Part shown: positions 16,759 through 26,803 of the stretch, in pieces
Numbering within the stretch: the first letter of the stretch is position 1
How the letters are laid out: every line of letters starts with the position of its first letter
Made by a program: the position numbers and the translations under genes
Origin: a virus
Length of the DNA: 37,240 bases
IMG/VR virus record: IMGVR_UViG_3300037485_000512
Span: 1-37,240 of that record
Strand: one strand, 5' to 3'
Notes under the pieces: generated by a model
The model's database searches: none
The model's input: only the letters and a program-made list of their open reading frames with translations
Told to the model about the DNA's origin: nothing

Positions 16759-16778
16759 GGTGATTTTTGGTTTGAGAC

Positions 16779-16823
16779 GGTTACAATTTGTAACCAGTTG
16801 AGTAGGTGACAACTTGTCACCTA
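16779..16823. promoter_or_regulatory. Tandem palindromic operator-like sites
   Basis: Two near-perfect palindromes, ggttacaatttgtaacc (16779-16795, 8-bp arms) and taggtgacaacttgtcacct plus one further A (16803-16823, 10-bp arms), share the half-site GGTkACAA. Their centres are 26 bp apart. With 1-nt centres they suit binding of a dimeric protein better than a hairpin. They fill the short gap between two leftward genes. Confidence 0.65.
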
Positions 16824-24741: not shown

Positions 24742-24827
24742 TGTTTGTGTGTGTGTGTGTTATGGGTCACTCTCCATTTCCCCGGCTTGTGACGGGCCGC
24801 TTGCGCGGGCTGGATTGCCCCGTAGGG

Positions 24828-25232: not shown

Positions 25233-25251
25233 GTTTTTAATGTTAAGGTTT

Positions 25252-25270
25252 GCAAGGGGTAGAACCTTGC
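25252..25270 (-). ncRNA. T-loop-like intergenic hairpin, copy C
   Basis: On the minus strand GCAAGG-TTCTACC-CCTTGC: a 6-bp stem and a 7-nt loop opening with TTC and with A at the fifth position. It starts ten bases after the stop of the upstream gene (25281) and lies about 20 bases before the next ATG (25232). Confidence 0.5.
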
Positions 25271-25280
25271 GTGTTTTAGA

Positions 25281-25643
25281 TTAGAATGATGAAACGATGA
25301 TTCCGCCGCTGAATTCAATAAGCGTCCCGTGATCTTGGATGTAAGAGCGAATCCATTCGTCAAGCTCATCGTCTTCCTCTTCACCGTCCAAGTCGATTCC
25401 TGCCAATTTCATGGACTCTCCAAGCGGTTTCCCGTAATAATCAGCAATCCAATCTTGCAGGCTTTCAGATTCCGTGAAATCGCAGCGTATAGCCACAACG
25501 TCAAGCTCTAGCTCCACGCTAACACTGTCTTCGTATTCTTGAAGGTGTTCAGCGAGCGCAAAGGCTCCAGCTCGTGACCATTTGGCGTTTTCGTCTTGTA
25601 GTAATTCGTGCGCGATTTCGTAGTTTGTAAGTGTCTTTTTCAT
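25281..25643 (-). CDS. Acidic phage protein of unknown function
   Basis: 120 residues from ATG 25643. An N-terminal helix region (ALAEHLQEYEDSVSVELELD) is followed by VVAIRCDFTESESLQDW and a very acidic segment (DLDGEEEDDELDEWI). Proteins with this LEEYE...VVAIRCDF...DW pattern recur in phage early regions; function is unknown to me. Confidence 0.7.
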   Translation of the reverse strand: MKKTLTNYEIAHELLQDENAKWSRAGAFALAEHLQEYEDSVSVELELDVVAIRCDFTESESLQDWIADYYGKPLGESMKLAGIDLDGEEEDDELDEWIRSYIQDHGTLIEFSGGIIVSSF

Positions 25644-25676
25644 ATGTTTGTCGTTTGTTTGTTTGTAGTGTGTGTG

Positions 25677-25697
25677 AAGCAGGGATTGAACCTGCTT
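25677..25697 (-). ncRNA. T-loop hairpin in early leader, copy B
   Basis: Minus strand AAGCAGG-TTCAATC-CCTGCTT: a perfect 7-bp stem and a 7-nt loop identical to a canonical tRNA T-loop (TTCRANY). It begins ten bases after a stop codon (25708) and 33 bases before ATG 25643. It is preceded by CACC, as in copy A. Confidence 0.65.
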
Positions 25698-25707
25698 GGT
25701 GGGTGGG

Positions 25708-25905
25708 TTACATAGCGGCAATCAGCTTGGCCATTTCACTACCGGCTTGGTGGGATTCCCTCCACGTTTCCTTGGTGCGGCGAGCGGCATCGCCGCAGTG
25801 GCGAGTAATTTCGCGACTAAGCGCGCTGCCATCGGAAAATTGCGTCCAGATAAACTGACGGTTCTGGGAGTCTATATCGGAGTAGGTAATTTTGATGGTT
25901 TTCAT
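25708..25905 (-). CDS. Small hypothetical protein
   Basis: 65 residues from ATG 25905 (MKTIKITYSDIDSQNRQFIW). The later part is helical (ALSREITRHCGDAARRTKET). A longer start at 25995 would overlap the end of the gene at 25946 and is unlikely. CA-rich leader, no Shine-Dalgarno. Function unknown. Confidence 0.6.
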   Translation of the reverse strand: MKTIKITYSDIDSQNRQFIWTQFSDGSALSREITRHCGDAARRTKETWRESHQAGSEMAKLIAAM

Positions 25906-25945
25906 ATTTTCGGTGTGTGTTTGTTTGTTTGTAGTTATCAGTTGC

Positions 25946-26125
25946 TCATGAAGGATTCTGCAAATTGTGGATTGCATCTTTTCTGGTAATTCCAAATACC
26001 TCGCCTGATGTTTTATTTATTCCATCATGGTAGTAGGCGATAAAGCCTACGATAGTGAATCCTGTTGGATGTTTCGATTTGATTTTTACGCATTCGCTTA
26101 AAATCGAGTATGGTAATTTTTTCAT
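25946..26125 (-). CDS. Small basic hypothetical protein
   Basis: 59 residues, MKKLPYSILSECVKIKSKHP then TGFTIVGFIAYYHDGINKTS and a short terminal helix. Preceded by ACACACACACAAACAT before ATG 26125. Function unknown. Confidence 0.6.
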   Translation of the reverse strand: MKKLPYSILSECVKIKSKHPTGFTIVGFIAYYHDGINKTSGEVFGITRKDAIHNLQNPS

Positions 26126-26156
26126 ATGTTTGTGTGTGTGTGTTTAGTCTCTTCAG

Positions 26157-26190
26157 TTGCGGCATTACCGCAAGACGCTTTGCAGCGTTT
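26157..26190 (-). promoter_or_regulatory. Two adjacent small hairpins in early leader
   Basis: TTGCGG-CATTA-CCGCAA (26157-26173 as read on +) and ACGCT-TTGC-AGCGT (26175-26188), the latter giving a GCAA tetraloop on the minus strand. They occupy the gap between the gene ending at 26199 and ATG 26125. They are hairpins of a different kind from the T-loop elements at the neighbouring gaps. Confidence 0.45.
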
Positions 26191-26198
26191 CGACCTGG

Positions 26199-26528
26199 TT
26201 AATTCACTTTGATGCCGCCTACCATGAAATACCACTCACGGCTTCCCACCTTGCTTTGAGCGTATCCACAAGGCGTACAATAAAGCCCCACCCTTCCCCT
26301 TGCGCTATCGTCACCCCGTAGTATTCCAAGCGAGCCCTTCGACTTGCAAGACGGGCAAAAAGTACTATCATGCAAAGCTATCACCCCGTCAATTGCGCCT
26401 TCCCGACCAAATGAATCGGTTGCTGACCCAGAGCCCTTAACGAAGGCTTCCCAGTTGCAAGCTGCTTCATTGTACCAGCTTTCAATTTCAAGACCTTGGA
26501 TTGCTTGCTTTTTAATGTTTGTTCTCAT
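26199..26528 (-). CDS. Zinc-ribbon protein
   Basis: 109 residues. CPSC (58-61) and CTPC (84-87) form a four-cysteine zinc ribbon around a GSLGILRGDDSARGRVGLY beta region, like topoisomerase/primase-type or transcription-factor ribbons. The N-terminus contains a basic helix. It may bind nucleic acid; there are no catalytic motifs. Start ATG 26528 follows a T-loop hairpin. Confidence 0.65.
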   Translation of the reverse strand: MRTNIKKQAIQGLEIESWYNEAACNWEAFVKGSGSATDSFGREGAIDGVIALHDSTFCPSCKSKGSLGILRGDDSARGRVGLYCTPCGYAQSKVGSREWYFMVGGIKVN

Positions 26529-26555
26529 GTCGTTAGTTGGTTGGTGGTTGTGATT

Positions 26556-26576
26556 AAGCGGGGATTGAACCCGCTT
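26556..26576 (-). ncRNA. T-loop hairpin in early leader, copy A
   Basis: Minus strand AAGCGGG-TTCAATC-CCCGCTT: a 7-bp stem and a loop identical to copy B. One stem pair differs (G-C here, A-T there), a compensatory change. It begins ten bases after the stop at 26587 and 27 bases before ATG 26528. Confidence 0.65.
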
Positions 26577-26586
26577 GGTGGTCTTT

Positions 26587-26760
26587 TCAGTTGCTTTCCT
26601 TTTCGGGGGCTTCCACGCAACGCCCTAGTTTAGTATCAAAGTACAAGGGACGACGAAGGCCGTCTAATGCCTGGGCGTAGGCTAAATCTTGCAAGCTGTC
26701 AGCGGTGGCAACGACACATTCCATGTCGTCCAGTAATTCGTATCTTGGTTTAGTTGTCAT
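26587..26760 (-). CDS. First gene of leftward block, small hypothetical protein
   Basis: 57 residues from ATG 26760 (MTTKPRYELLDDMECVVATA). It is acidic, with a helix DSLQDLAYAQALDGL. It is the promoter-proximal early gene, so probably expressed first after infection. Function unknown. The early promoter candidate lies at 26804-26832. Confidence 0.6.
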   Translation of the reverse strand: MTTKPRYELLDDMECVVATADSLQDLAYAQALDGLRRPLYFDTKLGRCVEAPEKESN

Positions 26761-26803
26761 GTCGTTTATTGGTTGCGTTGCGTCTTGCAACTGTCAATAC
26801 TCT

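Follow-up and report, generated by a model that had tools for sequence, protein, structure and literature searches.

T-loop hairpins between the early genes of a group of uncultured phages: a conserved RNA element in gaps also used by hammerhead ribozymes

In T4-type phages, the intercistronic stem-loop cassettes known as PeSLs have hairpins where exchangeable small early genes adjoin. Single genes flanked by type II hammerhead ribozymes have been found in phages and prophages (Perreault et al. 2011, PMC3088659). As regards recognition of the tRNA T-arm, a 5-bp stem with a 7-nt T-loop is enough for TrmA, TrmFO and TruB (PMC7912444), and the contacts of RNase P in the T stem-loop are reported at positions 53, 54, 56, 58, 61 and 62 (PMC11143913). 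The window, i.e., the whole stretch of DNA analyzed here, is a 37,240-base record of an uncultured virus, whose minus strand carries an early region with genes for RecT, an exonuclease VIII-like nuclease and a DnaC-like loader; the RecT and exonuclease genes adjoin the early operon. A preliminary description had reported three minus-strand hairpins in this operon, and all three are present in the sequence as described, each starting 10 nt past a stop codon, with the next ATG at 27, 33 and 19 nt (hairpins A, B and C, respectively). The hairpins (E-values from the family covariance model), their leaders and the gene that is the common neighbour of hairpins and hammerheads are as follows.

26556..26576, minus strand: T-loop hairpin A, AAGCGGG-TTCAATC-CCCGCTT (E = 1.2e-9)
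26529..26555, minus strand: A/C-rich leader without a Shine-Dalgarno sequence, from hairpin A to the ATG of the 109-aa gene
25677..25697, minus strand: T-loop hairpin B, AAGCAGG-TTCAATC-CCTGCTT (E = 2.2e-10), preceding gene F00
25644..25676, minus strand: A/C-rich leader without a Shine-Dalgarno sequence, from hairpin B to the ATG of F00
25281..25643, minus strand: gene F00, 120 aa, function unknown, PHROG 9974
25252..25270, minus strand: T-loop hairpin C, GCAAGG-TTCTACC-CCTTGC (E = 4.7e-9), 3′ of gene F00
25233..25251, minus strand: A/C-rich leader without a Shine-Dalgarno sequence, from hairpin C to the ATG of the 66-aa gene (F03)

Hairpin A is located between the stop codon of a 57-aa gene and the ATG of the 109-aa gene, and it differs from hairpin B by a single compensatory pair (G-C against A-T), as had been noted. 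The leaders with A, B and C have folding energies of -10.7, -9.0 and -8.3 kcal/mol (z = -4.4, -5.0 and -3.7 against shuffled controls), and each of them, folded alone, yields just its one isolated hairpin. The loops of A and B obey the tRNA T-loop rule, whereas the loop of C departs from it at one place, position 57, which is a T and not a purine.

The phage RecT led to 64 related IMG/VR loci, which made a comparison across relatives possible. With the 109-aa protein as the query no relatives were found, a megablast search of annotated phage records matched nothing in the early half of the window, and genome contigs scanned with RecT yielded three distant relatives only and no host. From the metagenome identifiers, which we read without any computation, the relatives appear to be freshwater phages. 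The hairpin recurs in them, in the same kind of gap, and altogether 50 distinct copies were collected, 7-13 nt downstream of a stop codon and 13-34 nt upstream of an ATG, and each of them on the early operon's mRNA strand. The element is present in 39 records, near-duplicates included, so that a feature limited to the window was ruled out. The window and 51 loci were searched with a strict pattern that required T[TC]CNANC between a G and a C and five or more stem pairs; it gave 41 matches, 40 of them in gaps and the 41st explained by a wrong gene call, and none on the other strand. A covariance model, run on both strands of 759 kb, picked out the same hairpins; its 42 matches at E < 1e-3 were confined to the mRNA strand. 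In the 30 complete records searched, those with any strong copy have one to three, and these are found in the early operon only.

The related loci were also surveyed by a census open to any loop, in which a stop codon, 6-13 nt, any hairpin and an ATG were required. The T-loop hairpins numbered 52 on the mRNA strand versus 0 on the other strand, a control that rules out a chance origin, and 7-nt loops in general were in excess on the mRNA strand (87 vs 15), with no clear excess for other loop sizes. When hairpins were picked solely by their A/C-rich leader, 39 of the 40 seven-nt loops were TYCNANC. We then scanned 2.9 million viral contigs by pattern. The 24-mer pattern of stem class 1 gave 11 stretches, all of the same kind where read, and the class 2 pattern gave 19 matches, whose setting was the same in each one read or tabulated; a generic GGTTCNANCC..(CA)5 pattern gave 9 matches, 7 of them family members and 2 (L093 and L094) not hairpins. 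Where read, the elements of these scans occurred only in contexts of the phage group of the window. Among annotated phages, short-query blastn returned just tRNA T-arms of Caulobacter phages and chance-level matches. A hairpin of the crAss-like phage cr109_1 (NC_055892.1, L096, 503-523), AAGCGGG-TTCCAAC-CTCGCTT, lies 6 nt past a TAA and is followed by an A-rich leader and an ATG; it falls in an unannotated 1.4-kb gap with E = 1, a chance-level similarity in spite of its identical form, and it was left out of the family count. At two loci (L013 at 2958 and L077 at 2935) a variant hairpin, TGCTGGGG-GTCAATC-CCCCAGCG, occupies the T-arm slot, with a UCAAU pentaloop that several hammerheads of the family also have as loop I. 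Rfam gave no gathering match to the hairpins in the window or in 9 loci, and its sole hairpin match, to Plastid-ycf2, was antisense and at chance level (E = 2.4). A literature search for T-loop hairpins in phage mRNA found no description.

The loop of the family is T-Y-C-N-A-N-C, in which U54, C56, A58 and C60 are invariant in 50/50 distinct copies; position 55 is T in 40 and C in 10 of them, position 57 is any base, and position 59 is T, C or A. The T-loop rule, stated at first for copies A and B, holds for those two, but the family is not confined to a purine at position 57, since C57, T57 and C55 exist. Judged by sequence, the 7-nt loop closed by G53-C61, with U54 and A58 able to pair, would form a T-loop in all 50 copies. 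The stem has 5-8 bp, mostly 6-7. In the aligned copies the closing pairs G52-C62 and G53-C61 are invariant, and the remaining five of the seven stem pairs vary with two-sided changes (83 cells vs 25 in shuffles). This count was made on hairpins pre-selected for pairing, and it supports the stem without proving it alone; the controls for strand and position do not depend on it. The wobbles of the stem, read on the mRNA strand, are mostly G-U (L008, L010 and L040), with one A-C mismatch (L007). The flanks are nearly free of G (1.3% in the spacer upstream, 3.7% in the leader), the leader downstream is 51% A, 35% C and 10% T, and a Shine-Dalgarno-like 4-mer is present in 0/50 family leaders versus 50/174 long genes, so that the hairpin is kept as an isolated RNA domain. 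From the distances, it would sit between the footprints of the terminating and the initiating ribosome. Since U54, C56, A58 and the closing pairs stay fixed while the stems drift, the loop seems to be read by something. Recurrence, stem covariation and the strand census together back the proposal of a T-loop hairpin family acting at the RNA level in the early operon, and we conclude that the family is a real, selected, cis-acting RNA element, a new one of the T-loop kind in an unusual setting.

The preliminary description had also considered a tRNA mimic, and chance remnants of complete tRNA genes. A full mimic is not supported, because the T-arm is the sole part of a tRNA present. ARAGORN found 0 tRNA genes in the window and eight related loci, Rfam at gathering scores found none in the window and 9 loci, and several unrelated stem sequences have just the loop in common; hence a tRNA gene or its remnant was rejected. 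An intrinsic terminator was rejected as well, because a T-run is absent after the hairpins.

The same operon of the window carries, in other gaps, two predicted self-cleaving ribozymes.

26146..26195, minus strand: type II hammerhead ribozyme, located between the 109-aa gene and the 59-aa gene, GGTC-GAAA-CGCTGCAAAGCGTC^TTGCGGTAATGCCGCAA-CTGAAGA-GACT
24764..24821, minus strand: Twister-P1-like ribozyme in a later gap (RF03160, 45.9 bits, E = 3.8e-8, full length)

The hammerhead core is complete (GAAA, the NUH cleavage triplet, CUGANGA and three stems, with stem II open), and cleavage in the window is predicted between 26174 and 26173. Each of 38 distinct records (44 loci) has one hammerhead, which shares the strand of the hairpins and lies either directly downstream of a stop codon or past a possible promoter. 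In the hammerhead alignment, 15 pairs are formed in 23/23 sequences (100% of cells), with two-sided changes of 88 versus 23 in shuffles. The Rfam hammerhead models did not report the hammerhead of the window at E <= 10, and the identification therefore rests on the core and the covariation. The 45.9 bits of the Twister-P1-like ribozyme are below the Rfam gathering score of 67.2; twister-like stretches occur in four relatives (L002 at 8449, L003 at 3807, L004 at 7639 and L017 at 6620), and two further regular-expression matches (L024 and L032) were in a coding-like context and were not counted.

For a comparison of slots, the genes adjoining each element were clustered. In one and the same gap, between F00 and F01, a T-arm hairpin is present in L005, L010, L017 and L027 and a hammerhead in L011 and L013, near-duplicate records being left out. 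Directly after F00, 15 records have a T-arm hairpin and 3 have a hammerhead; directly before F00, 11 records have a hammerhead and the window has hairpin B. Hairpins and ribozymes hence occupy the same kind of place. Because the slot after F00 is a bare ~20-nt A/C leader in four loci (L015, L031, L049 and L051), the element is dispensable. The genes between the elements also come and go, and the exchange of hammerhead and hairpin could reflect the shuffling of gene cassettes rather than equal function, which may explain a part of it. That relatives hold hammerheads in the same gaps lends indirect support to the RNA processing signal that had been suggested for the hairpins.

Further structures are found nearby.

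26777..26791, minus strand: leader hairpin of the first early gene (26587-26760), GTTGC-AAGAC-GCAAC, with an A/C-rich leader downstream

In the form GTTGC-NNGAC-GCAAC this hairpin is conserved in the window and about 20 relatives, between a shared AT-rich upstream sequence and a CA-rich leader, and the early transcript may begin with it. Upstream of F00, past a likely promoter, about 30 loci carry a single copy of a CCCGCGAYGCAGGG structure that might be a compact pseudoknot (GCG / CCC...GCG...GGG), and L078 (6321-6468) and L083 (7821-7968) carry four tandem copies of it at ~44-nt spacing; the tandem copies are reminiscent of the repeat RNAs of type III toxin-antitoxin systems. Elsewhere in the window (16771-16822, minus strand), one gap contains two strong inverted repeats, TAGGTGACA-AGT-TGTCACCTA and GGTTACAAATTGTAACC, which are palindromic and operator-like.

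Starting from what the comparison established directly (the element, its conservation, covariation, strand and position, and the slots shared with hammerheads), we infer that the hairpin acts in the formation or stability of mRNA boundaries and that its loop binds a host factor specific for T-arms. As a tentative proposal, the hairpin may be a boundary mark between early mRNAs, its T-loop serving as a candidate dock for such a factor. An isolated T-arm mimic would stand between the cistrons of the early operon, just past the footprint of the ribosome that terminates upstream, and the unstructured A/C-rich leader directly downstream would start the next gene without a Shine-Dalgarno sequence. 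The hairpin would use the type of slot that hammerhead or twister ribozymes fill in relatives and in other gaps of the same genome, and from this shared slot type a role in marking boundaries is therefore the most likely one. A defined stable hairpin would be supplied to the message downstream or, once the RNA is cut, to the end of the one upstream. A downstream message cut by the hammerhead would open with the hairpin of stem I followed by an A/C-rich leader, much like the T-arm hairpin and its leader, and because of this resemblance the T-arm hairpin is proposed to mark the same boundary. U54, C56, A58 and the two closing G-C pairs would be the contacts of the dock, and the reported RNase P contact positions match the invariant positions of the family. 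The host factor that reads them might be a TrmA/TrmFO-type or a TruB-type enzyme, acting as an RNA-binding protein, or RNase P. In a wider and more doubtful version, self-cleaving ribozymes and T-arm mimics would form an interchangeable set of devices that partitions the early RNA, the mimics recruiting a host tRNA-handling protein or RNase P and so setting the stability or translation of single early genes.

A purely mechanical leader hairpin is a somewhat unlikely alternative. Any stable hairpin would then insulate initiation from termination or protect an mRNA end, and the T-loop would merely be inherited with a spreading cassette. The placement just outside the footprints of the terminating and initiating ribosomes (offset 7-13 nt, leader 13-34 nt) agrees with it, as do the GTTGC-NNGAC-GCAAC hairpin and the CCCGCGAYGCAGGG structure, which fill similar leader places past likely promoters, and the recurrence of the elements as near-identical cassettes. 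However, an inherited loop under no constraint is expected to drift like the stem, whereas none of the 50 copies departs at U54, C56, A58 or C60, and the variation falls on positions 55, 57 and 59 and on five of the seven stem pairs; moreover, loops of other sizes lack a clear mRNA-strand enrichment.

It is improbable that the hairpins are in the first place sites for RNase P, in which case the host enzyme would read the T-loop and cut the 5′ spacer, parting the cistrons as a hammerhead does unaided. T-loop hairpins serve as model substrates of RNase P, and U54, C56, A58, G53-C61 and G52-C62 coincide with its reported contacts (PMC11143913); the slot is also common to self-cleaving ribozymes. 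However, RNase P measures 12 bp, and the stems here have 5-8 bp with A/C-rich flanks that are unable to extend them; a conserved RCC(A) 3′ of the stem is absent, so that the hairpins lack both the ~12 bp from T-loop to cut and the RCC(A) of an RNase P substrate. Short or single-stranded substrates are cut 5′ of guanosines, but the spacer is only 1.3% G. Judged in this way from the sequence, RNase P cleavage of the hairpin leaders would be possible and geometrically poor.

Slightly less probable still is a modification substrate, in which host Psi55 or m5U54 would stabilise or tag the phage mRNA. TruB accepts 17-mers with GUUYRANYC, and TrmA and TrmFO accept a 5-bp stem with a T-loop (PMC7912444); U54 is invariant, and copies A and B of the window fit TruB exactly. 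All copies would, by their sequence, suit TrmA or TrmFO (m5U54), having a stem of at least 5 bp and a canonical T-loop with U54. However, GUUYRANYC fits only 31/50 copies, 10/50 have C55, which cannot become pseudouridine, and copy C of the window has T57. Because 19/50 miss the TruB consensus and 10 lack U55, pseudouridylation is not a general purpose of the element, and an obligatory TruB modification of the hairpins would seem disfavoured. A mere boundary of mobile cassettes, i.e., a short block of homology for RecT-mediated exchange of small early genes, is very unlikely: the neighbours on both sides of hairpins and hammerheads change freely and RecT and the exonuclease are encoded beside the operon, but the compensatory stem changes lower homology yet keep the structure, and the constrained loop points to RNA; the wobbles on the mRNA strand are mostly G-U.

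Rfam lists no conserved intercistronic mRNA element made of an isolated T-arm mimic. Should the loop of the proposed boundary mark recruit a tRNA enzyme or RNase P, this would be a new viral use of the tRNA machinery on mRNA. The hairpin and ribozyme versions of the F00-F01 gap are directly comparable and offer a handle on the long-standing question of the role of self-cleaving ribozymes in phages.

Compared with the RNase P model hairpin AT1 (PMC11143913), the phage element is likewise a single T-loop hairpin with the conserved contact positions, but it has 6-7 bp instead of 12 bp, no RCCA and a G-free spacer. The non-tRNA hairpins read by TruB, Pus4 and TRUB1 have a GUUCNANNC-type loop and are, as here, short hairpins within mRNA; in contrast, 10/50 phage copies are without U55, and the phage element is fixed relative to stop and start codons. 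The PeSLs differ in that no T-run terminator follows the hairpins described here. With the tRNA T-arm the family has in common the 7-nt loop UYCNANC closed by G53-C61, and annotated tRNA genes of Caulobacter phages match the hairpin core GCGGGTTCAATCCCCGCTTC perfectly over 20 nt, whereas the stem of the family is mostly 6-7 bp rather than 5, C55 and Y57 are tolerated, and the hairpins lie past stop codons in mRNA, without acceptor, D or anticodon arms. The T-loop hairpin differs from the type II hammerheads of phages and prophages (PMC3088659) in having no catalytic core and in being too small for any known self-cleaving ribozyme, but it shares with them the gaps of the early operon, the strand, and the place directly past a stop codon and ahead of an A/C-rich leader, and one actual hammerhead lies within the operon of the window itself.
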